This document shows positions 1,144 to 36,784 of a DNA stretch of 40,997 nt, one piece after another; position 1 is the first letter of the stretch, and every line of letters starts with the position of its first letter. The notes below the pieces were generated by a model, which was not told the DNA's origin, did no database searches, and worked only from the letters and a program-made list of their open reading frames with translations. Source of the stretch: SAR202 cluster bacterium (GTDB lineage: Bacteria > Chloroflexota > Dehalococcoidia > Lucifugimonadales > UBA826); the NCBI GenBank assembly GCA_008373095.1, contig RQOP01000032.1, forward strand, positions 1 to 40,997, in the 5' to 3' direction. A program made the translations under genes and the position numbers.

Positions 1144-2535
1144 ATGAAATCAGACAGGAAACTTGTAGCGCATCTAATGAGGAGGGCAGGGTTTGGAGCC
1201 ACACCCAAAGAATTAGACGAACTTACTTCTAGCAAATCATACGAAGAAATTGTAGAAGACCTGATCAACCCGGAAAAATTTGACCCTATTGATATGTCCT
1301 ACGTGGAAAGATATTACACTGGGGAACCGGTAGCAGTGCATGTTGGAAAATGGCTCTATAGAATGGCGAACACTAAAAGACCTCTTGAAGAAAAGATGTC
1401 CTTATTCCTACACCATATTTTCCCCGTTGCCTGGGGAAAAAGTGAACACGGGCCTTCCCTATACCGAGAGATCGAAATGTTCCGAAATACGGGATTAACT
1501 AATTTCAAGAATATCTTGTTGAACCTATCTAAAGATCCAGCTATGCTTTTTTGGTTAGACAATAACGAAAACCATAAAGATGAAATAAACGAAAACTATG
1601 GAAGAGAGCTACTTGAGTTATTTTCCATGGGAGTTGGCAATTACACGGAAGATGATATAAAGAACGCCTCCAGAGCCTTCACTGGATGGACTTTTAGACA
1701 ACCGCTATCTTTATATCCGTATGGTCATCACCACGCTGATTTCGAGTTCATATCGGATGACCATGATTACGATGAAAAAGAATTCCTAGGACAAGTTGGA
1801 AATTTCGACGGTGAAGACATCATCGATATTATCGTCAAGGAAGAAGCCGCTGCCAATTTCTTATCACGTCACCTATACAATTTTTTTGTGGAAGATGAGG
1901 TACAAGTCCCTTCATGGGAAACTGTAGACCCTAAAGACCCTCAGGCGATTAAAGAACTTTCAACCGCCTATATGGAATCTGAAGGGAATATGCGAAATGT
2001 TCTTAGCACCCTGTTTAATTCAGATTTCTTCAAAAATTCTATGAATTTGCCAAAAGTGAAAAGTCCTACTGAACTTATAGTTGGTGTAATCAAACAAACC
2101 GGTGAATTTAACTCCCCGACACCTGGCATCCATGAATTTGCGGTAACAACCCTCAACGGTTCGGCCTTTGAAGGTCCTCTGGCAATCATGGGACAAAGAC
2201 TTATGAATCCTCCCACTGTGGAAGGATGGCACACGGGATCTGAATGGATTGATTCCGGAACATTGAGTGAAAGAATTGGTTTTGTAGAAAAACAATTTGC
2301 AGACCCCTTGAAACCAGGTGTTTCAGAAATGGTCAGCAGAATCGGAAGTTTGAATGATAACCCGGCCGAACTAGTAGACAGATGCCTCGATTTGTTAGGG
2401 GCAGTGAATGTTCGTGAGGAAACATACAAATCACTTAAAACATATGCTGAAGAGCTCAGGGAACTTGAAACCTCAGCTGGAGTGCATAATCTTATACAAA
2501 TGACAGCTTCTACCGTTGACTATCAGTTTGCGTAG
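1144..2535 (+). CDS. DUF1800 family protein (cassette A)
   Basis: This 463-residue protein belongs to DUF1800, a family of largely helical proteins of unknown biochemical role that usually sits beside DUF1501. Family hallmarks are clear: HLMRRAGFGATP (10-21), a KMSLFLHHIF segment (84-93), the signature NENYGRELLELFSMG (149-163) followed by SRAFTGW (176-182), and PPTVEGW near the C-terminus. I chose ATG 1144 because GAGG lies 9 bases upstream and the two paralogues start at the same point of the alignment; a TTG at 1117 overlaps the second -10 box. No signal peptide or membrane segment is visible, whereas DUF1800 proteins elsewhere are often exported. It is the first gene of a tight operon with DUF1501 (22-base gap) and NHL proteins. 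Function unknown. Confidence 0.9.
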   Translation: MKSDRKLVAHLMRRAGFGATPKELDELTSSKSYEEIVEDLINPEKFDPIDMSYVERYYTGEPVAVHVGKWLYRMANTKRPLEEKMSLFLHHIFPVAWGKSEHGPSLYREIEMFRNTGLTNFKNILLNLSKDPAMLFWLDNNENHKDEINENYGRELLELFSMGVGNYTEDDIKNASRAFTGWTFRQPLSLYPYGHHHADFEFISDDHDYDEKEFLGQVGNFDGEDIIDIIVKEEAAANFLSRHLYNFFVEDEVQVPSWETVDPKDPQAIKELSTAYMESEGNMRNVLSTLFNSDFFKNSMNLPKVKSPTELIVGVIKQTGEFNSPTPGIHEFAVTTLNGSAFEGPLAIMGQRLMNPPTVEGWHTGSEWIDSGTLSERIGFVEKQFADPLKPGVSEMVSRIGSLNDNPAELVDRCLDLLGAVNVREETYKSLKTYAEELRELETSAGVHNLIQMTASTVDYQFA

Positions 2536-2557
2536 GAATAAGGAGAGGTAAACCAAT

Positions 2558-3694
2558 ATGACAACCGACGCCAGAGAAAAAACTCTAGTAGTTATTCAAT
2601 TAACCGGTGGAAATGATTTCATGAACACCCTGGTTCCTTATACAAATGAGCACTATTATGACGCCCGAAAAAAAATTGTTATAGGACAAAACGATGTACT
2701 TCCCATAAATAAAACATTGGGAATAAATAACAATGCGGCTCCTCTGAAAAGACTCTTTGATGAGGGAAAAGTGGCCATCGTTCAAGGAATAGGATATCCA
2801 AATTCAAATAGATCTCATTTCAGAGGAATGGATATATGGCACACGTGCGAACCTGACAGAGTCGGCAGTGAGGGCTGGCTAGGTTTAGCTATAAAAGATC
2901 TAGACCCCAAAAGTGAAAATGTATTAACTGGTATAAACATTGGGCAAGGTTTGCCAAGGGCAATGTCCGTAGCTGGTGTACCAGTAACCTCTGTAGGAGA
3001 TCTAGAAAGCTATGGCGTCATGAACAAAATCGAACAAGAACGTCTTAAGGAAAGATCACTCCAGGCTTTCAAAGATATATATGGCCAAGCAATAGGAAGT
3101 GGACAAGTAGCAGAATACATTGGTAAGACGGGACTAGATGTACTTAAGGGTGCAGACCTTTTGGCCGACGTGGCCAGCAAGTATCAATCCTCCATTGAAT
3201 ACGCCGACAACTCTATAGCAAAAAGCCTGAGAGACGTGGCACGCATACACTTTGCTGACTTAGGGACCAGAGTTTTTTATACTAATCACGGCGGATATGA
3301 CACTCATGCAAATGAAATGCCGGCACACCCAAAATTATTAACCGATCTTAGCGGTGCTATATCTGACTTCATGGATGACCTTGAAGAACACAATGCTGCG
3401 GACGATGTATCAATACTTGTTTTCACAGAATTTGGAAGACGGATGCGAGATAACGGAAGCGGCACAGACCATGGCTCAGGAGGAGGTGCATTCTTAATTG
3501 GCAAAAATGTGAAAGGTGGTCTTTATTCAGAATACCCTTCATTAAATCCCAACGACTGGGAACATGGGGAAGACCTAAAACACACCATAGACTTCCGTGG
3601 CATTTACGGCACTGTGCTAGACCAGTGGCTCGGCCTGGATGCTAGGCCGATTGTCAAAGGCGAATTTGAACAGATAAAGCCTTTTTACATTTAA
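2558..3694 (+). CDS. DUF1501 family protein (cassette A)
   Basis: This 378-residue DUF1501 protein is a distant relative of the alkaline phosphatase/sulfatase superfamily; the family has no established reaction. Recognisable stretches are VVIQLTGGNDFMNTLVPY (11-28), the GIGYPNSNRSHFRGMDIWH segment (77-95), HGGYDTHANEM (244-254) with D248 and H250, and FTEFGRRMRDNGSGTDHGSGG (289-309), where E291, D304 and H305 are candidate metal ligands. The chain begins directly with the core domain and has no Tat or Sec leader, which is unusual because planctomycete and proteobacterial DUF1501 proteins commonly carry one. It sits between DUF1800 and NHL genes with gaps of 22 and 18 bases and is surely co-transcribed with them. 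An AGGAG-type site precedes the ATG. Confidence 0.9.
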   Translation: MTTDAREKTLVVIQLTGGNDFMNTLVPYTNEHYYDARKKIVIGQNDVLPINKTLGINNNAAPLKRLFDEGKVAIVQGIGYPNSNRSHFRGMDIWHTCEPDRVGSEGWLGLAIKDLDPKSENVLTGINIGQGLPRAMSVAGVPVTSVGDLESYGVMNKIEQERLKERSLQAFKDIYGQAIGSGQVAEYIGKTGLDVLKGADLLADVASKYQSSIEYADNSIAKSLRDVARIHFADLGTRVFYTNHGGYDTHANEMPAHPKLLTDLSGAISDFMDDLEEHNAADDVSILVFTEFGRRMRDNGSGTDHGSGGGAFLIGKNVKGGLYSEYPSLNPNDWEHGEDLKHTIDFRGIYGTVLDQWLGLDARPIVKGEFEQIKPFYI

Positions 3695-3712
3695 TTAATC
3701 GGGAGACCTACG

Positions 3713-4741
3713 ATGACGAGACCACACGGATTATTGAGAGCTGGATACCCCTATTCAACAACTCTCGGGATGAGGAGAGTAACCAACTTCCCAACTGACA
3801 TAGCCTTTGGTGAGAATGACATTTTGTACGTGCTGCTAAGGTCAGAAGGAGTAGCCTCGGTTCGAATATGGTCGACAGAGGATATGGATGAACTCACCGA
3901 TGAGTTAAAAGGGTTCGGTAGTTTTGGCTCTGAAGACGGGCAACTAAAATGGCCTGTCAACATAATTACTGACGATTCAGGCGGGATATTCATCAGTGAC
4001 GAAGCTAACCATAGAATCACCAAATATGATCAAGAAGGCAATTACATAAGTAAATTTGGTACCTACGGTGACGGTCAAGGTGAATTCAACGGCCCTTCAG
4101 GGTTCGCTCTTGATATAGATAATAATTTCATAGTGTGTGATTCTAAAAACAACAGAATCCAAAAATATACTAAAAGTGGAGACTATATATCTTCATTTGG
4201 TACATATGGATCGGGCCTAGGGCAATTTAACCTACCTTGGGGTTTGGACTGTGACGAAAATGGAAATATATACGTTTGCGACTGGGGAAACCATCGAATT
4301 CAAATTTTTTCTTCTGACGGTGAGCTGATAAATGTTTTTGGAGAATACGGTGACGGCACGGCGCAACTGAATAGGCCAACTGGGATCACTGTAGACAACC
4401 ATGGCGATATTTATGTGGCTGACTGGGGTAACAACAGAGTCCTCATGTTCAACTCAGAAGGTCAATACATCTGGAGTTTCTATGGGGATGCTACTCTATC
4501 AAAAGTTGCACGCAATTACATGCTGACTAACGCAGTACCCAACAGACTTAGAGAGATGGGTAAATTAGAGGCAGAAAAATATCTGCGAAGACCAAGATCC
4601 GTGAGGATAGATAGTGATTTCAGGCTATTTATACCAGATTTCGAATCCTACCGTATTCAGGTCTACCAAAAAGACTTCATAGAATTGGATGAGACTCAGT
4701 TCGCAGAACCATTGAGAAATCCTACCTTGGAAGTCACATAA
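3713..4741 (+). CDS. NHL-repeat beta-propeller protein (cassette A)
   Basis: This is a 342-residue six-bladed beta-propeller of the NHL type, likely a protein- or ligand-binding scaffold. Four canonical repeats of the form PxGI...GNIYVxDWGNHRIQ run from about residue 79 to 255, with an atypical first blade (about 25-75) and a last blade at 293-322. Between blades five and six lies a charged helical insert (about 257-293, GDATLSKVARNYMLTN and on) that the two cassette B paralogues share in position. There is no signal peptide. It follows DUF1501 by 18 bases with GGGAG upstream of its ATG. The partner is unknown; co-occurrence suggests it works with the DUF1800 and DUF1501 products. Confidence 0.88.
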   Translation: MTRPHGLLRAGYPYSTTLGMRRVTNFPTDIAFGENDILYVLLRSEGVASVRIWSTEDMDELTDELKGFGSFGSEDGQLKWPVNIITDDSGGIFISDEANHRITKYDQEGNYISKFGTYGDGQGEFNGPSGFALDIDNNFIVCDSKNNRIQKYTKSGDYISSFGTYGSGLGQFNLPWGLDCDENGNIYVCDWGNHRIQIFSSDGELINVFGEYGDGTAQLNRPTGITVDNHGDIYVADWGNNRVLMFNSEGQYIWSFYGDATLSKVARNYMLTNAVPNRLREMGKLEAEKYLRRPRSVRIDSDFRLFIPDFESYRIQVYQKDFIELDETQFAEPLRNPTLEVT

Positions 4742-5267: not shown

Positions 5268-5867
5268 TTACCCTGACCAATTCAAAATAAAATCACGCTG
5301 TATCTGGGTTTCTGGTGAAGCCCTAAATGCCCCTGCTACATCTAGTCTCAAATTCGTAATCTGATCCAATGCTTCTTGACCAGTCATACCGTGCCTTACC
5401 AAATAACATCCCACAACCGTTCCAGTTCTACCAAGGCCCCTAAAACAATGCACATAGACCGAGTTGTTAGACTCAATTTGAGAGTCAATTAAATCTAAAA
5501 TTCTTTTCATCTCGTCAGAATCTGGTACCTTCCTATCGATTATAGGAAACCTGTAATACTCAGACCTTAAGGAGCGTCGGCGTCTTTCCAGATGTAAGTT
5601 GCGTTGATAATCGGGTCTTTCACCAGCCTCGGTCAAATCTATAAATGAACTGATACCGCATTCCATGAGATTACCGATTTTGTAGGAAGGGGTGTTCCTA
5701 TCCCTAAACTTTGTCTTCAGCATCGCTGAAACAGAATTAACAATGGTAGCCAAAGTTGTTGAAGGCCGAAATGACAATTGATTACCCGGGTACTCCCCTG
5801 CTGCCAAATTTCCTTCTACCACCCAATAGGCAAAACTATTTAATTGATTTTCAGTATTATCGATCAT
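5268..5867 (-). CDS. Dual-specificity/tyrosine-type protein phosphatase
   Basis: A 199-residue cysteine-based phosphatase. The P-loop HCFRGLGRTGT (140-150) has the CX5R signature with nucleophile C141 and phosphate-binding R147, and the aspartate in PIIDRKVPD (D111) is well placed as general acid. Such enzymes dephosphorylate phosphotyrosine, phosphoserine or non-protein substrates such as nucleotides or inositol phosphates. There is no signal peptide, so it is cytoplasmic. It converges on the YbaK gene without any gap and is divergent from orn. The N-terminal 70 residues include GEYPGNQ, typical of small DSP-like bacterial enzymes. Its substrate is unknown. Confidence 0.85.
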   Translation of the reverse strand: MIDNTENQLNSFAYWVVEGNLAAGEYPGNQLSFRPSTTLATIVNSVSAMLKTKFRDRNTPSYKIGNLMECGISSFIDLTEAGERPDYQRNLHLERRRRSLRSEYYRFPIIDRKVPDSDEMKRILDLIDSQIESNNSVYVHCFRGLGRTGTVVGCYLVRHGMTGQEALDQITNLRLDVAGAFRASPETQIQRDFILNWSG

Positions 5868-13187: not shown

Positions 13188-14627
13188 TCACTTTTTTAAC
13201 CAAGATTTCCCTTCATCGACATATCGACTTTGCCCCACAGCTGATATTGTAATTTCCTGAGAGTAGGTACCGAATTCTGTGCTCAATGAGGCCTCATATA
13301 TTTCCGTTTCGGATATTATTTCATTATCAGAACCCTTGAAACTTTCTTCCAATATTCTGCCTTCTACTTGATCCGGTATTTCTTGCCCCAATATGTATAG
13401 GATAGTCGGCAAGATATCTATGTTGCCAGTGGGTGACAATATTTTCTCGCCTTCTAAAAATGACGGTCCTCGACAAATAAGGGTGTTATTCATTTCATGT
13501 CTACTCATAGACCCATGTTGCCCTAAGCCTACGGACCCTCCTGTGGAGTAAACCTGACCAGAGTAGCCGTGTAGATTATCCGAAGAATCCCAATTGAAAG
13601 ACATTATGAGATCAGGTGACCTTTTTCCTTCATTCATAATTAATGAAGAAGAAATAGTCCCCGGAATTTCCCCAAATCGATCCGAAGAGCATAAAGCTCC
13701 ACACCAAATTTGGCCTGAAAGCCATTCTATTAATTCAGATACCAAAAAAACTTCATCTGGATTTTTCAAGTAGAAAAGAACGCTTCCACCATTTTGAGCC
13801 ACAAGCCATTCATTAGCAGATTCTAATTCAGAGGACTTCAATATAGATTCAACATCTACTACTTCAGAAATAGTCGAATAGCCATGATCGGATAAAATCA
13901 TCAAATCAAAATTTTGATGTTTAGGGGAATTGTTAAGATATTTTATGACCTTTCCAAATTCATAATCGGCCTCCTGCAGTGCCAATTTCGCCTCGTCACT
14001 TCCAACACCGAAAGAATGCTGAGATTTATCTGGTTCCGAAGACCAAATCAAACCTACTTCAGGATTCACTGTCTCAAGAATATATTCAGTGAAAATATCC
14101 ACGGCTTTTCGATACCTGGGAGTGTTGGGTAATTGTTCACTAGGCCATGTTCCAAATAAATCTTCCAATTCACCACTCAGAGACGAAGGAATTGTGAATT
14201 CGGGGTGAATAGTAGCGCCTCCATATCTATCCGCTAGAGGATTATGAACATATGCATTACCGCTGGTTCCTACTCCTATAGCGACATAATTCATATTTTT
14301 TGAAGAAATAATTTCTTGTAAAGTGGGGACCCCAAGTACGTCTAAACCAGAATTTCGTATTTTCGATAATTGGTCGTTAAGGGCTGGCATCACATTAGAA
14401 TCATCATAATCTCTAGCCACAAAAGTATTACCGGCAAGCCAATGTTTACCTGGGTTCACTCCTGTAACCATTGATGCTGCGTTCACTCTGGTGACAGATG
14501 GGAATACAGGATGATGATTTTCAAAAAACGAACCTTCTCCGGATAAATTAAACAGGTTTGGTGTATCCAAACTGTTAATTTGAGAAGGTTGCAACCCATC
14601 AAAAACTGCAATAACTATTTTAGTCAT
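13188..14627 (-). CDS. Alkaline-phosphatase-superfamily phosphodiesterase/phosphonoacetate-hydrolase-like enzyme
   Basis: A 479-residue enzyme of the type I phosphodiesterase/nucleotide pyrophosphatase branch of the alkaline phosphatase superfamily. The two-zinc site is complete by position: D10 in VFDGLQ, nucleophile T46 in PSVTRV, D200 and H204 in SSEPDKSQH, D247 and H248 in LSDHGYS, and H371 in GQHGSMSRHE. The segments FPSVTRVNAASMVTG and WSSEPDKSQHSFGVGS look like phosphonoacetate hydrolase (PhnA) and its relatives, but broader phosphodiesterases share them. There is no signal peptide, so it acts in the cytoplasm. A phosphonopyruvate-type decarboxylase and a PEPM-fold lyase nearby make carbon-phosphorus metabolism possible; this is inference. 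Substrate unproven. Confidence 0.83.
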   Translation of the reverse strand: MTKIVIAVFDGLQPSQINSLDTPNLFNLSGEGSFFENHHPVFPSVTRVNAASMVTGVNPGKHWLAGNTFVARDYDDSNVMPALNDQLSKIRNSGLDVLGVPTLQEIISSKNMNYVAIGVGTSGNAYVHNPLADRYGGATIHPEFTIPSSLSGELEDLFGTWPSEQLPNTPRYRKAVDIFTEYILETVNPEVGLIWSSEPDKSQHSFGVGSDEAKLALQEADYEFGKVIKYLNNSPKHQNFDLMILSDHGYSTISEVVDVESILKSSELESANEWLVAQNGGSVLFYLKNPDEVFLVSELIEWLSGQIWCGALCSSDRFGEIPGTISSSLIMNEGKRSPDLIMSFNWDSSDNLHGYSGQVYSTGGSVGLGQHGSMSRHEMNNTLICRGPSFLEGEKILSPTGNIDILPTILYILGQEIPDQVEGRILEESFKGSDNEIISETEIYEASLSTEFGTYSQEITISAVGQSRYVDEGKSWLKK

Positions 14628-30521: not shown

Positions 30522-31643
30522 CTAATTCTTTAAAAAACCAACTTTCTCATATTCGCCTTTTACTACCGGCCTAGCATCTATTTCTAACCAATCTTCTAAT
30601 ATTTCTGTATAGACGCTTCTGAAGTCTAAATTAAACCTCAAGTCACCCTCTAAAAGTTGGTCTGGTGCCAAAGAGGGATAATCACTGTACTGTCCTCCCT
30701 CTACTTGATCACCAATGACAAATGCCACTCCTCCAGACCCATGGTCTGTACCATTACCATTGTCCTTAACTCTACGTCCAAATTCTGTGAAAACAAACAT
30801 TATGACATCGTCACTTTTATTGGCTCTCTTCATGTCGTCGTAGAAATCGTATATCCCACCAGAAACATCTGTGAGTAAACCTTCCTGAAGGGCGATCCCA
30901 TTCGTATGTGCGTCAAAGCTACCATGTTGCGTATAGCAAATCCGAGTACCTATATCCGCCTGCAAAACCTGGGCTGCTCCTTTCATTGCCTTGGCAAATG
31001 AGTTTTCTGCATACTCAACATCTGACGAATACTTCTCAGTAACACTTCCTATAATCTCTGCACCTTTCAATGCATCGAGACCGGTCTGGCTAAGATAGTC
31101 CATAACGGGACCGCTACCTATAGCTTGAGAATACATATCTTTAAAGGCTTGTAGAGCTTCATTTCGTTGATCAAGTTCAGTGACGTGGTTCATTAGGCCG
31201 TAGGTGTTCAAGTCTGTCACTGACGCAACTGGTGCACCATGAGATACAAGTGCTCTAGGTAACCCTGCTCCAAAATTAACAGCGGCTACAACATTGTCAT
31301 GTTTTGGGTACATTTGATTTATGGCGTTCCCCAACCAGCCTTCGTTACCTACCTTGGTTGGTTCCGCAGTATGCCATATATCCATTGATCTGAAGTGAGA
31401 TCTATTAGGCTCCGGATATCCAACTCCATGGATGACAGCAACTTTGCCTTGATCATACAAATCTTTTATAGGACTCATTACCGGGTTGAACCCCAAGCCA
31501 TCTCCAATAGGTATTACCCTATCTTCCGTGATACGTACATTGGGTCGATTATCTACGTAATGTGGATTATCATAAGGGATCACGCAATTAAGGTAATCGT
31601 TGCCTCCAGATAACTGAACCACCACTATCTTTTTATCGCCCAT
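30522..31643 (-). CDS. DUF1501 family protein (cassette B)
   Basis: A 373-residue DUF1501 protein, paralogous to the one in cassette A along its full length. It shares VVVQLSGGNDYLNCVIPYDN, GVGYPEPNRSHFRSMDIWH, the DAHTNG metal-site loop, and FTEFGRRVKDNGNGTDHGSG. In HGSFDAHTNG the local sequence differs slightly from the HGGYDTHANE of cassette A, but Asp and His are kept. There is no signal peptide. It is the last gene of cassette B, 35 bases behind an NHL gene, with AGGAG before its ATG and a terminator just after it. Function is unknown. Confidence 0.9.
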   Translation of the reverse strand: MGDKKIVVVQLSGGNDYLNCVIPYDNPHYVDNRPNVRITEDRVIPIGDGLGFNPVMSPIKDLYDQGKVAVIHGVGYPEPNRSHFRSMDIWHTAEPTKVGNEGWLGNAINQMYPKHDNVVAAVNFGAGLPRALVSHGAPVASVTDLNTYGLMNHVTELDQRNEALQAFKDMYSQAIGSGPVMDYLSQTGLDALKGAEIIGSVTEKYSSDVEYAENSFAKAMKGAAQVLQADIGTRICYTQHGSFDAHTNGIALQEGLLTDVSGGIYDFYDDMKRANKSDDVIMFVFTEFGRRVKDNGNGTDHGSGGVAFVIGDQVEGGQYSDYPSLAPDQLLEGDLRFNLDFRSVYTEILEDWLEIDARPVVKGEYEKVGFLKN

Positions 31644-31678
31644 AATATTCTCCTATTCCTTGTATGGTCGTAATTGTA

Positions 31679-32674
31679 TTAAATTCTTTCAAAAATTTGA
31701 AATCTATGCCTACAAGTTTCCAAGATGTAGACTCTCCCATCTCCATCAACCATTATCGAGCACGGGTCCCAAAAATATGGTTCTATTCTCGCTGATATCT
31801 CCCTGACATCTTCCGTATCCGTCTCAAAAACTGGGACATAACTGGACCTTGCTCGTTTCTCGTCCTGCTGAGATTCGAAATATTCAAGAGCCCATTGGTT
31901 GAGATCTGCCTCACCTCTATTCATATACAAAAATTCATTGTTCTCATCAAAAACTTGGAAAATTTGGTTGCCCCAATCAGCAATATAGAGATTTCCTTCA
32001 CTATCTACCGCAACATCAGCTGGTCTGTTAAGTGATATGTCAGCACCAATACCGTTCGATACAGTAGATATTACTTCTCCATCAATACCAAATCTAACAA
32101 TTCTGTCATTTCCCCAATCAGCCACATAAATATCATCTCTGATGCCGGCAGTAAGACCCCAAGGGTAATTTAATTGGGATTCCGAGGTTGTCCCCGAGTT
32201 AAGCTGATCTATATACCTTCCGTCGGTGTGATAGCGCTGAATTCTATGGTTCATTGCATCGCTCACATAAACTATGTCATCAACAATTAGTAACCCAGTT
32301 GGACGACTAAGTTCACCTGCTAGTTCCCCTGAAACGCCCCAAGAATCTATAAGTTCTCCTTCCGGATCAAATCGGGTAATCCGATCCAGTTTCTCATCTG
32401 AAACGTACATGTTTTGTTCAGAGTCAAAAGCGATGGCGCTTGGTTCCAGCATCTGACCTTCAGATTTACCTTGTGACCCCACCTTTCCAAAAAAATCAAA
32501 TTCTCCTGACACCATCTGCACACCAACTGTGGGTCCCCTTCCTCTGCTAGCAACGAAGATCCTTTTGTCTTCTCTCATCGCGATATGAGCAGGCAACTGA
32601 AATCCTCGGCCTCCTTGGTCAGTAGCAAACCCTATATTAGAACTATATTTGAGGCCAAATTTTGTAGCTACCAT
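31679..32674 (-). CDS. NHL-repeat beta-propeller protein (cassette B, second copy)
   Basis: A 331-residue six-bladed NHL propeller without a signal peptide. The repeats are less regular than in the sister copy but contain DIYVADWGNDRIVRF (181-195) and NLYIADWGNQIFQVF (228-242). The helical insert between blades five and six (253-302) reads RGEADLNQWALEYFESQQDE and on to EISARIEPYFWDP, nearly the same as in the sister. The final blade ends with the shared CRHRFQIFERI-type tail. It lies between DUF1800 (25-base gap) and DUF1501 (35-base gap). The partner is unknown. Confidence 0.88.
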   Translation of the reverse strand: MVATKFGLKYSSNIGFATDQGGRGFQLPAHIAMREDKRIFVASRGRGPTVGVQMVSGEFDFFGKVGSQGKSEGQMLEPSAIAFDSEQNMYVSDEKLDRITRFDPEGELIDSWGVSGELAGELSRPTGLLIVDDIVYVSDAMNHRIQRYHTDGRYIDQLNSGTTSESQLNYPWGLTAGIRDDIYVADWGNDRIVRFGIDGEVISTVSNGIGADISLNRPADVAVDSEGNLYIADWGNQIFQVFDENNEFLYMNRGEADLNQWALEYFESQQDEKRARSSYVPVFETDTEDVREISARIEPYFWDPCSIMVDGDGRVYILETCRHRFQIFERI

Positions 32675-32699
32675 TTACTATTACCCCTTTTAAATAAAC

Positions 32700-34154
32700 C
32701 TATGCAGTTTGGTATTCCTGGGTGCAAACAATAAGCTGAATCACAGATAAAGCTGCCTTATCAAATTCTTTCGACGATACTTCATCTTGCCAGCCCAATT
32801 TTTCATACTTAGTAGCAAATTCCTTCAACCTATTTTCAGTCATAACTGAAACATCTACAGGACCAAGAACTTCAAGGCAAGCCGATACTAACTCATCAGA
32901 GGTAACCACATTAGTCCCCACATTAACTTTTATGCGGTCAATTATGTTTCTAACCCCTACTTTATCCGGGTTATCCAGTATTTTGGATGCGAAATTTATC
33001 CTTTCAACATAGGTACCAGTATTTATCCATTCGTTACCACCTTGCCAGCCTTCTACACTAGGAGGGCCTAGCAGAGCTTGTCCCATATTAGAACATACTG
33101 CCTGGGCGTAATAAGTCTCATCTGAAGGAAGCTGAATGGGGCCTGCAAGCCTCATGGTACCTACCACCATCTCTGCAGGACTTTTTATCCTGGCATACCT
33201 AACAGATTGGTTTTTGAAAAACTCAGATTTGAACATAGTTTCTAGCATGGCCTTGATACTATGCTCACTCTGAAAGTAAGAATCGACCATAGCTTGAATA
33301 GCTTTGGGATCTCTGGGTGATTCATGAGGCCATTGCGGAACCGGGACTTCGTCAGCTACATAGAAATGATATAAATGGCGTGCAATATACTCGGCCGTAG
33401 CTTTGTGCTCACATATAATTCTAACTGCGTCCTCTCCATTCCAATTACCCGTCTCACCCAAAATCGTTTTTTCGCCGTCGTCGTGATCCTCAGGATCATA
33501 CTGATACTGCCAGGAAATATACCCGTATGGTCGTACAGTATTGTTTCTCATCTTAATTGACATGTATTCAGGATTTACTACACTCCAACCAGTGAAAGCC
33601 CTAGCAGTTTCCTTAATGTCATCTTCGTTGTAGTTACCCACGCCCATTGAAAAAAGTTCTAGAATTTCCCTGCCATAGTTCTCGTTAATGCTTGTCCCAT
33701 GATTATCTTGATTATCCAACCACATGATCATAGCCGGATCTTTAGAGAGGGCCAGTAAAAGATCATCAAACCTTTCAATCCCTTTTTCCCTGAACATATT
33801 GATTTGATTCACAACTACTCTGTTCTGTATTAGTTTCGTTCCAGCAGTAGCAAAAATCCGGTGCCAAAACAAACACATCTTTTCTCTCAGAGGTGTTTCA
33901 GTCATAACCATGCGGTAAACCCAATGAGCTCTTGCTCCTTCCGCTAACCTCAAATCAGATTGATCTTTATGAAATCTAGAGATGAAATCTTGGGGAATGT
34001 AGTCGGGTGTCTCGAAATTGAGGAGATGGTCAACTATTTCGTCGTAGTCCATCTCACTAAATCTATCCATTTCCTGGGGAGTAGCTCCAAAGCCCGCCCT
34101 TCTTAGTAAATGGGCTATTAGCCCAAGATCCGCCTTGCTCTTAATTGTAGTCAA
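32700..34154 (-). CDS. DUF1800 family protein (cassette B, second copy)
   Basis: A 484-residue DUF1800 protein, very similar to the first copy of the cassette and more distant from cassette A. It keeps LIAHLLRRAGFGATPQEM, REKMCLFWHRIFATAG, WLDNQDNHGTSINENYGREI, the LELFSMGVGNY signature and RAFTGWSV. The start is TTG 34154 with GGAGG 5 bases upstream; an ATG is absent at this position in frame. It has no export signal. It follows the first NHL gene by 70 bases, the widest gap in the cassette, in which I see no promoter or hairpin. Function unknown. Confidence 0.9.
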   Translation of the reverse strand: MTTIKSKADLGLIAHLLRRAGFGATPQEMDRFSEMDYDEIVDHLLNFETPDYIPQDFISRFHKDQSDLRLAEGARAHWVYRMVMTETPLREKMCLFWHRIFATAGTKLIQNRVVVNQINMFREKGIERFDDLLLALSKDPAMIMWLDNQDNHGTSINENYGREILELFSMGVGNYNEDDIKETARAFTGWSVVNPEYMSIKMRNNTVRPYGYISWQYQYDPEDHDDGEKTILGETGNWNGEDAVRIICEHKATAEYIARHLYHFYVADEVPVPQWPHESPRDPKAIQAMVDSYFQSEHSIKAMLETMFKSEFFKNQSVRYARIKSPAEMVVGTMRLAGPIQLPSDETYYAQAVCSNMGQALLGPPSVEGWQGGNEWINTGTYVERINFASKILDNPDKVGVRNIIDRIKVNVGTNVVTSDELVSACLEVLGPVDVSVMTENRLKEFATKYEKLGWQDEVSSKEFDKAALSVIQLIVCTQEYQTA

Positions 34155-34224
34155 AAGCTCCTCCGTTATTGCCCTTGTATGATGATGCCAATAGCCCCAT
34201 CAAAAACGTTAAATTCAGTTTTGT

Positions 34225-35223
34225 TTAAATCCGCTCAAATATTTGAAACCGATGCCTTCCTGTTTCCAATACATATACTCTACCTTCTTCATCTAATTCC
34301 ACTGAAACTGGGTCCCATAAATATGGCTCCATCCTAGCTGATATTTCAGAAGGGTCTCCAGTATCAGGTTGGTACACTGGGACATATGATTCTCTTGCAT
34401 TTCTCTCATCATCCTGAGAAGCCAGATATTCGACCGACCAAGGGTTAAGATCTGCCTCACCTCTTTTGGTTGCCAATACATTGCCCATTTGATCTAAGAC
34501 CACAAGACGCTGACTCCCCCAATCAGCAACAAACAAAGTCCCTGATGAATCTACTGCAACATCAGCCGGACGATCCAAAACCGAATTAACCCCTCCAGCG
34601 ATGGTCAATGTATGGTTCCCTTTTGCATCAAATTTTTGAACCCGGTCATTTCTCCAATCTGCTATGTATATATTTCCTTCAGAATCGTCACATATACCCC
34701 AAGGTAAATTGAATTCACCGTTACCTTCGCCTGCACTGCCCCACTGGTCTATAAAATCCCCGTCAAGGGTATACATTTGAATCCTATTATTTCTTGAATC
34801 AACCACATACATCACTTCTCCGCGTATAAGCAGACCACTTGGCTGATTAAATTCCCCATCCCCAGAGCCTTTTCTTCCCCATTGTGAGATAGGATTTCCT
34901 TCTCGATCAAATTTAGTCACTTTGTTGAAATATTCATCTGACAAATATAAATTTTCGTCGCTGTCCAAAGCTACTGACGTAGGCCACATCATCCCTCCTA
35001 AGCCAGCCCCATAGGTACCAATCTGTCCTAAAAAGTCATGATCTTTAGTAACCATTTGTATACCATTAGATCCTTTTGTTGAAGATTTACCTCGACTAAC
35101 TACGAAAATAACACCATCATCTCTTATTACCATGGAGGAAGGCAGTTGGAATCCTCTCCCTCCAAAATCGGCACAGAATCCCACATTGGTCACATATTTT
35201 AATTCAAAAGCAGTTGTTGTCAT
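34225..35223 (-). CDS. NHL-repeat beta-propeller protein (cassette B, first copy)
   Basis: A 332-residue NHL propeller with well-formed repeats: NLYLSDEYFNKVTKF (91-105), VMYVVDSRNNRIQMY (137-151), NIYIADWRNDRVQKF (184-198) and TLFVADWGSQRLVVL (229-243), then a last blade to the C-terminal HRFQIFERI. A helical insert fills residues 254-303 before the last blade. The N-terminus FELKYVTNVGFCADFGGRGF is shared with the second copy and not with cassette A. No signal peptide. It lies 24 bases behind the first DUF1800 gene, with an AGGAG site. Likely a binding scaffold; ligand unknown. Confidence 0.89.
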   Translation of the reverse strand: MTTTAFELKYVTNVGFCADFGGRGFQLPSSMVIRDDGVIFVVSRGKSSTKGSNGIQMVTKDHDFLGQIGTYGAGLGGMMWPTSVALDSDENLYLSDEYFNKVTKFDREGNPISQWGRKGSGDGEFNQPSGLLIRGEVMYVVDSRNNRIQMYTLDGDFIDQWGSAGEGNGEFNLPWGICDDSEGNIYIADWRNDRVQKFDAKGNHTLTIAGGVNSVLDRPADVAVDSSGTLFVADWGSQRLVVLDQMGNVLATKRGEADLNPWSVEYLASQDDERNARESYVPVYQPDTGDPSEISARMEPYLWDPVSVELDEEGRVYVLETGRHRFQIFERI

Positions 35224-35247
35224 CTTCTATCTCCTGTCCTTGTTTTC

Positions 35248-36696
35248 TCAGACCGTCTGATATTCTTGGCTAGATACGACGAGTTGTATAATCGCCACCG
35301 CTGCCCGATCAAATTCTTCACTAGATGTGTCATCTGACCAAGTTAGATTCCCAAACTTAGAAGCATAGTCTTTTAAACCTAAACTGGTAGTATCTAATAC
35401 TTCCAAAGGTCCCAAAACCTCTAAACAGTTGTCAACCAATTCATTGGAGGAAATCTCCATTCCATCAGACAAGGCTTTTATTCGGTCAATTATGTCGCGA
35501 ACTCCTTGTTTGTCGGGATTATTCAATATTCTCCCCGCGAAATTAACCCTTTCCACATAGGCACCAGTATTAATCCACTCCGTGCCTCCCTGCCATCCTT
35601 CAACACTGGGAGGTCGCATTAAAGCTTGGCCCATGTTTGCACATGCAGCATCAGCCATATAGGTTTCCTCAGACGGTAATTCAATTGGTCCAGCTAGCCG
35701 CATTGTACCTATCACCATCTCTGATGGACTTTTTATCCTTGCATATCTGGAACCCGCATCTTTGAAAAACTCCGATTCAAATAAAGTTCGTAGTACCGCT
35801 CCTATGTCATGTCCATTGTCAAAATAGGACTTACATAAAATATCTATAGCTTCGGGATCGCGAGGTTCTTCATGTGGCCATTGAGGTACTGGCAGTTCAT
35901 CAGCAACAAAATAGTGATACAAATGGCGAGCCACAAATTTAGCGGTGGCCTCTTGCTCGCAAATAATTCTTACTGCATCCTCTCCGTTCCAGTTGCCCTT
36001 TTGACCTAATATTACTTTCTCACCCGCATCATGATCTTTTTCATCATACTCAAACTGCCATGACATATATCCATAGGGCCTCGCGGTATTGTTTCGCATC
36101 CTAATAGACATATAGTCTGGATTAACTACCCTCCACCCTGTGAATGCTCTGGATGTCTCCTTTATATCTTCTTCAGAATAATTGCCAACCCCCATGGAAA
36201 ACAATTCCAGAATTTCTCTTCCATAATTTTCATTAATGTTCGATCCATGATTGTCTTGGTTATCCAGCCACATGATCATTGCCGGGTCCCTCGACAGTTC
36301 AATTAATAAATCGTCAAAACTGCCCATTCCATGCTCTCGGAACATATCTATTTGATTTGTAACTACCCTGTTTTGAATCAATTTAGTGGTACCCGTAGCG
36401 AAAACTCTATGCCAGAACAGACACATTTTTTCTCGCAGTGGAGTATCTGTCATTACTAGCCTATAGACCCAATGAGCCCCTCCACCATTTCTAAGGTCAG
36501 ATTGATCGACATGGTACCTTCTAATCAAATCGTCAGGAATCACATCTGGGTGATCCGGATTCAATAGTTCATCAATGACCGCTTCATAGCCCATTCCAAG
36601 AGCTCGTTCCATCTCATATGGCGTTGCTCCAAACCCAGCCCGTCTCAATAGATGGGCCATTAATAAAGCCTCCTGTCTTGAGTGAACTGTAGTCAT
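35248..36696 (-). CDS. DUF1800 family protein (cassette B, first copy)
   Basis: A 482-residue DUF1800 protein with HLLRRAGFGATP (15-26), KMCLFWHRVFATG (90-102), INENYGREILELFSMGVGNY (154-173), SRAFTGW (182-188) and PPSVEGWQGG. I chose ATG 36696, which has GGAGG (36704-36708) 7 bases upstream; an open frame continues to 36777, but a consensus promoter with its -10 at 36757-36762 lies inside that stretch, so the longer start is unlikely. There is no signal peptide. It opens cassette B and is most similar to the other DUF1800 copy of this operon, which suggests tandem duplication. Confidence 0.92.
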   Translation of the reverse strand: MTTVHSRQEALLMAHLLRRAGFGATPYEMERALGMGYEAVIDELLNPDHPDVIPDDLIRRYHVDQSDLRNGGGAHWVYRLVMTDTPLREKMCLFWHRVFATGTTKLIQNRVVTNQIDMFREHGMGSFDDLLIELSRDPAMIMWLDNQDNHGSNINENYGREILELFSMGVGNYSEEDIKETSRAFTGWRVVNPDYMSIRMRNNTARPYGYMSWQFEYDEKDHDAGEKVILGQKGNWNGEDAVRIICEQEATAKFVARHLYHYFVADELPVPQWPHEEPRDPEAIDILCKSYFDNGHDIGAVLRTLFESEFFKDAGSRYARIKSPSEMVIGTMRLAGPIELPSEETYMADAACANMGQALMRPPSVEGWQGGTEWINTGAYVERVNFAGRILNNPDKQGVRDIIDRIKALSDGMEISSNELVDNCLEVLGPLEVLDTTSLGLKDYASKFGNLTWSDDTSSEEFDRAAVAIIQLVVSSQEYQTV

Positions 36697-36756: not shown

Positions 36757-36784
36757 AGTATACCAATCACTCTGCACATGTCAA
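36757..36784 (-). promoter_or_regulatory. Strong sigma70 promoter of cassette B
   Basis: On the minus strand TTGACA (36779-36784), a perfect -35 box, is followed by a 16-base spacer and TATACT (36757-36762). It predicts a leader of about 50 bases before ATG 36696. It is the best promoter match in the window and implies solid basal expression of the five-gene cassette. Confidence 0.7.

Follow-up and report, generated by a model that had tools for sequence, protein, structure and literature searches.

Two operons of the same three protein families

The window, by which the whole analysed stretch of 40,997 nucleotides is meant, carries at two loci eight genes that encode members of three protein families:

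1144-2535, plus strand: DUF1800 gene of locus 1, 463 aa from the ATG at 1144 (the open reading frame opens with TTG at 1117); PF08811, 310 bits
2558-3694, plus strand: DUF1501 gene of locus 1, 378 aa; PF07394, 89 bits
3713-4741, plus strand: NHL beta-propeller gene of locus 1, 342 aa; PF01436, 122 bits
36696-35248, minus strand: DUF1800 gene, first of locus 2 (the open reading frame opens with GTG at 36777); PF08811, 337 bits
35223-34225, minus strand: NHL beta-propeller gene of locus 2, 332 aa; PF01436, 98 bits
34154-32700, minus strand: DUF1800 gene, second in locus 2, 484 aa; PF08811, 344 bits
32674-31679, minus strand: NHL beta-propeller gene, second in locus 2, 331 aa; PF01436, 87 bits
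31643-30522, minus strand: DUF1501 gene, last of locus 2, 373 aa; PF07394, 76 bits

All eight reading frames are present, closely spaced and assigned by Pfam well above the gathering cut-off (26.1 bits for PF08811 and 27 bits for PF07394, with scores of 310-344 for the DUF1800, 76-89 for the DUF1501 and 87-122 for the NHL proteins). This agrees with an earlier note on this DNA, according to which the same three families form tight operons at 1144-4741 and 30522-36696 in different orders. In locus 1, DUF1800 and DUF1501 are separated by 22 bp and DUF1501 and NHL by 18 bp. The gaps in locus 2, in the order of transcription (DUF1800, NHL, DUF1800, NHL, DUF1501), are 24, 70, 25 and 35 bp; here the DUF1800-NHL unit occurs as a tandem duplicate, the NHL proteins of which are 51% identical to each other. 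The two DUF1501 proteins of the window share 53% identity. Several PF01436 repeats score above the cut-off in the NHL proteins, and solved NHL propeller structures match the same profile.

A DSP-PTPase-type phosphatase gene of the window (5268-5867, minus strand; PF22785/PF22784) lies two genes downstream of the module of locus 1, and relatives of it are found near the module in 4 loci. A type I phosphodiesterase/nucleotide pyrophosphatase gene (13188-14627, minus strand; PF01663, E 1.7e-33), which is a further member of the alkaline phosphatase superfamily, is also present in 6 of the 7 other searched genomes of the genus.

Copies in the source genome and spread of the module

The source genome (1.95 Mb in 104 contigs) contains 10 DUF1800, 10 NHL and 5 DUF1501 genes, distributed over nine module loci. 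Each DUF1800 gene has its own NHL gene beside it, all DUF1501 genes lie within module loci (5 of the 9), and every member of the group of close NHL paralogues (E below 1e-30) either adjoins DUF1800 or lies at a contig end. The start of contig C83 (L046) and the end of contig C75 (L049) each carry an NHL fragment; the two are complementary (query residues 3-162 and 166-331) and thus represent the halves of one gene, which brings the ratio of DUF1800 to NHL to 1:1; the two contigs probably adjoin each other. As all 10 DUF1800 genes adjoin a close NHL paralogue, the neighbourhood is not a matter of chance, and the proposal that the families form a unit is upheld. The description of the module as present at two loci proved correct for the window but too narrow for the genome, in which four of the nine loci are without DUF1501. 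At L051:5934-7358 DUF1800 consists of two abutting open frames (a broken gene or a sequencing error), and the NHL gene is found about 2 kb beyond DUF1501. GMC oxidoreductase genes lie directly upstream of two modules of this genome on the same strand (L044:10570-12162 and L048:7608-9164, both minus); as a partner of the module in general, GMC oxidoreductase was rejected.

In GTDB, the 80 loci nearest by DUF1800, chosen by similarity to the window DUF1800 and describing this clade rather than all DUF1800, belong to SAR202/Dehalococcoidia and other Chloroflexota, Caldilineaceae, Poribacteria, Candidatus Entotheonella and one latescibacterium; several come from single-chromosome assemblies. NHL was present in 79 of their 81 modules, the other 2 running off the contig, and 69 of the 81 had the order 1800-1501-NHL. 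The orders 1501-1800-NHL and NHL-1800 also occur, and DUF1501 follows DUF1800 on the same strand in locus 1 and in most module loci. The adjacency is not confined to the source genome, since the triplet is found in SAR202-type Chloroflexota, Caldilineaceae, Poribacteria, Entotheonella and Latescibacteria. DUF1501 was absent beside 17 of the 114 NHL-associated DUF1800 genes. All 16 genomes searched of the family to which the source genome belongs contain DUF1800, in 3-18 copies each; for the phylum Chloroflexota this was 67 of 151 genomes, mostly with a single copy. Clustering of the neighbours of about 89 loci yielded neither a fourth conserved operon partner nor a recurrent metabolic gene hinting at a substrate: the commonest neighbour family occurred in 17 loci at scattered positions.

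Leaders and the exported DUF1800-DUF1501 pair

Leaders were sought upstream of the domain by hydropathy and the RR motif, not by SignalP. By this test the eight window proteins are leaderless, in-frame stop-to-stop extensions included, and neither a hydrophobic nor an RR segment precedes the window DUF1800 of 1144-2535. A twin-arginine leader was likewise found in 0 of the 25 module proteins of the source genome. None of the 334 proteins from three NHL-module sets combines a hydrophobic segment with an RR motif; 8 of them have a hydrophobic stretch, which lies ahead of the domain in the in-frame extension. The earlier statement that the proteins are without signal peptide and cytoplasmic is thereby borne out as far as leaders can tell, and the module is a real and widespread unit that is probably located in the cytoplasm.

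A different picture was obtained for 20 DUF1800 loci of Chloroflexota from other orders, 19 of which consist of DUF1800 followed by DUF1501 without NHL (the remaining one, L146, is a leaderless triplet). A hydrophobic segment before the domain was seen in 15 of the 20 DUF1501 proteins, 14 of these with a twin-arginine motif, and in 13 of the 21 DUF1800 proteins. Most pairs in other Chloroflexota have Tat-type leaders. Plasmid-borne pairs of Thermus, Vibrio, Persicobacter, Azospirillum and Rhizobium showed no NHL within the stretch covered, and their DUF1501 is preceded by an RR motif. Matches to both families were also obtained in Caulobacter vibrioides. In the Thermus thermophilus TTHNAR1 plasmid 4 (L204), DUF1800 is interrupted by an IS982 transposase, while the adjoining DUF1501 is intact. 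Five exported-type pairs (L133, L134, L136, L137 and L206) have an RR leader on DUF1501 and none on DUF1800, an arrangement suggestive of export of DUF1800 as a bound passenger; these pairs are candidate Tat hitchhiker complexes.

The exported pair and the NHL module have in common the two families, the order 1800 to 1501 and the conserved residue set of DUF1501. They differ in that the pair has Tat-type leaders, no NHL and usually one copy per genome, whereas the module is leaderless, has an NHL partner and occurs in 3-18 copies.

Origin and co-divergence of the module

In a FastTree tree of 142 DUF1800 sequences, which contains some long exported branches and leaves the exact sister group unsure, the NHL-associated sequences form one clade (119 rows, support 100). 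The five changes of NHL state that were initially counted fell to one after four DUF1800 at contig ends had been set aside. The DUF1800 tree thus indicates that the association with NHL arose once, together with the loss of the leader. Inside the NHL clade the presence of DUF1501 changes at least 10 times.

The distances of the partners are strongly correlated (r 0.89 for DUF1800-NHL, 0.90 for DUF1800-DUF1501 and 0.91 for DUF1501-NHL). For 26 modules of five multi-module genomes the cognate DUF1800-NHL pairs gave r 0.81, against a mean of 0.08 and a maximum of 0.38 after shuffling within genomes (0 of 2000 as high), which implies that the modules diverge as units without exchange of parts. Linked genes would be inherited together whether or not their products touch, and co-divergence alone does not demonstrate contact. 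The earlier note had proposed a complex with a hydrolase core. The hydrolase-like fold of DUF1501 (see below) speaks for this, but DUF1501 is dispensable (17 of 114 absent), while DUF1800 and NHL stay 1:1. The constant unit is therefore DUF1800 plus NHL, and the notion of a hydrolase core needs revision.

Structure and conserved residues of the three proteins

The AF2 model of the window DUF1501 (2558-3694; pLDDT 86.1, pTM 0.89) matched best to nucleotide pyrophosphatase/phosphodiesterases (Z 18.4, rmsd 3.3 over 244 residues); 482 of 999 aligned chains had Z >= 8, and sulfatases were found by Foldseek with E 1.6e-6. The proposed relation of DUF1501 to alkaline-phosphatase-type hydrolases is confirmed at the level of this predicted fold, which is that of the alkaline phosphatase superfamily. 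DUF1501 has the fold in common with these enzymes but differs from them in sequence: no significant match was obtained (PF01663 in 4 of 76 members, best E 0.047), and it has an EFGR...TDHG motif of its own. No PDB entry was related to DUF1501 in a sequence search. Cytoplasmic and exported forms both retain D20, S86-H87-F88, D248, H250, D274, E291-F-G-R294, N299, T303-D304-H305-G306 and R347, so the catalytic-type residues D20, S86, D248, H250, E291, D304 and H305 are the same in both. At R89 and H95, next to S86, and at D298 the two forms are not alike, a hint of a different substrate. Alkaline phosphatases have a strand with D-H at its end; the counterpart in DUF1501 seems to terminate in E291-F292. 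As the HMM-HMM alignment with the type I phosphodiesterase of the window (13188-14627, minus strand) gave no residue mapping, the metal ligands are predicted from residue conservation together with the predicted secondary structure.

The window DUF1800 (1144-2535) gave a confident AF2 model (pLDDT 90.3, pTM 0.91) that is mostly helical, as had been stated. The whole model found no Foldseek match at E <= 0.001 and no Z above 4.4 in a second structural comparison; as the whole chain was searched, this indicates neither a new fold nor unrelatedness. The PDB likewise yielded no relative in a sequence search with DUF1800. Across 97 triplets, 18 NHL-only modules and 19 exported pairs, little or no variation was seen at R14, E83, D139, N149-E150-N151, R154-E155, E158 and D171, and H207 is conserved except in 2 of the 18 NHL-only rows. 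DUF1800 thus retains its polar core even where DUF1501 is absent.

A segment of DUF1800 (about residues 239-305) is related to PSD1/DUF1553 (HMM-HMM probability 93% over 62 columns, controls 0.3% or less). The PSD1/DUF1553 profile matched 30 of 83 DUF1800 members weakly (best E 4.4e-4, below the membership cut-off) and did not match the window DUF1800. PSD1 genes in Poribacteria are followed by an RR-motif DUF1501. Such PSD1-DUF1501 pairs (Poribacteria, PVC group) resemble the module in that a protein with a DUF1800-like segment precedes DUF1501; unlike in the module, the proteins are large, and the DUF1501 carries an RR motif and aligns with N at position S86 and with S at D20. The pairing of a PSD1/DUF1800-like protein with DUF1501 is therefore wider than DUF1800 itself.

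The signature of the NHL protein of the module is that of an ordinary propeller, to which a conserved insert (GxATLS...) is added. A role as metal-dependent lyase of the Vgb/PAL type was set aside, because a near-invariant His column is missing. An assignment of the NHL protein of locus 1 to ScyF (scytonemin) was also rejected (E 1e-47, but 163 bits against a cut-off of 350), the similarity being that of NHL only.

Proposed function and alternatives

Beyond the direct observations (tight operon, strict co-inheritance, no leaders, the folds, the conserved residue sets and a single NHL origin in the DUF1800 tree), we favour, with a probability of roughly 0.45, a cytoplasmic enzyme module diversified by paralogues, in which DUF1800 and NHL are constant, a DUF1501 metallo-hydrolase of the alkaline phosphatase superfamily is present in 5 of the 9 loci, and the whole is derived from the exported pair. 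The mechanism that we infer, with moderate confidence, would be as follows. The module would descend from a Tat-exported DUF1800-DUF1501 pair that, in the SAR202-type clade, lost both leaders and recruited the NHL propeller. DUF1800 would most likely bind NHL, which may provide recognition of a substrate or partner, and would itself supply the conserved polar site (R14 to D171 as listed above, and H207). DUF1501, where present, may cleave a phosphate or sulfate ester of an imported compound in a phosphodiesterase-like manner. The many paralogues could serve to handle various substrates, in line with what has been proposed for other enzyme expansions in SAR202.

DUF1800 could instead be the main enzyme (metal- or cofactor-dependent), with DUF1501 and NHL as alternatives or auxiliaries: DUF1501 would prepare or release the substrate, and NHL would replace DUF1501 or anchor the enzyme in the cytoplasm. 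We consider this somewhat unlikely. It would account for DUF1800 alone among the members occurring in every arrangement, with its polar residues preserved in triplets, NHL-only modules and exported pairs, while DUF1501 comes and goes within the clade; the kinship of part of DUF1800 with PSD1, which also precedes DUF1501 in Poribacteria, points in the same direction. However, no known catalytic motif was recognized in DUF1800, its invariant residues may be structural, and modules without a DUF1501 of their own could be served by one in trans. The bolder idea that DUF1800 is an undescribed kind of enzyme in a cytoplasmic complex with the NHL propeller (and optionally the phosphodiesterase-fold DUF1501), and that its multiplication is a main catabolic invention of SAR202 and sponge symbionts, is similarly doubtful.

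A co-regulated operon, the proteins of which work separately in one pathway without forming a complex, is consistent with the variable gene order (1800-NHL-1501, 1501-1800-NHL, NHL-1800) and with adjacency and co-inheritance being all that has been shown. It is nevertheless rather improbable, given the 1:1 ratio of DUF1800 to NHL over at least four phyla, their co-divergence module by module and the leaderless DUF1800 beside a Tat-leadered DUF1501 in several lineages, which suggests binding. Very improbable is a role of the NHL proteins as eukaryote-like effectors of symbionts on the sponge host, made or delivered with the help of the DUFs. NHL repeats are listed among the eukaryote-like domains enriched in sponge symbionts (PMC5524777), and Poribacteria and Entotheonella have the module; but SAR202 genomes, those of the open ocean included, hold many copies, and export signals are absent from the module proteins.

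Biological meaning

The dark ocean harbours abundant SAR202 bacteria, to which the degradation of resistant organic matter is ascribed. Published work already covers the operon of DUF1800 and DUF1501, its transfer together with chitin synthase genes and the Tat motif on DUF1501 (PMC5122149), and signal peptides in DUF1501 clusters of the PVC group have been described (PMC4452313). Saw et al. (2020; PMC6946804) include COG3391, COG4102 and COG5267 in a correlation analysis of the 50 COGs most abundant in SAR202 and call them uncharacterised conserved proteins. The paralogue expansions of these COGs in SAR202 concern the same three families as the module; the relevant parts of that paper give an abundance correlation only, without operon, leader analysis, origin or function. 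In the open-licence literature no report was found that describes the leaderless NHL-containing operon, traces it to a single origin or provides biochemical data.

Three of the most abundant SAR202 families without assigned function are thus one inherited module, which has apparently moved from the outside to the inside of the cell. The module may explain part of the enrichment of 'eukaryote-like' NHL repeats reported for sponge symbionts. For experiments it offers three handles: an enzyme with a phosphodiesterase fold, a helical hub whose polar core is conserved, and a defined partner, the NHL protein. With up to 18 copies in a genome, a much-used function in these poorly understood ocean and sponge-dwelling bacteria awaits discovery.
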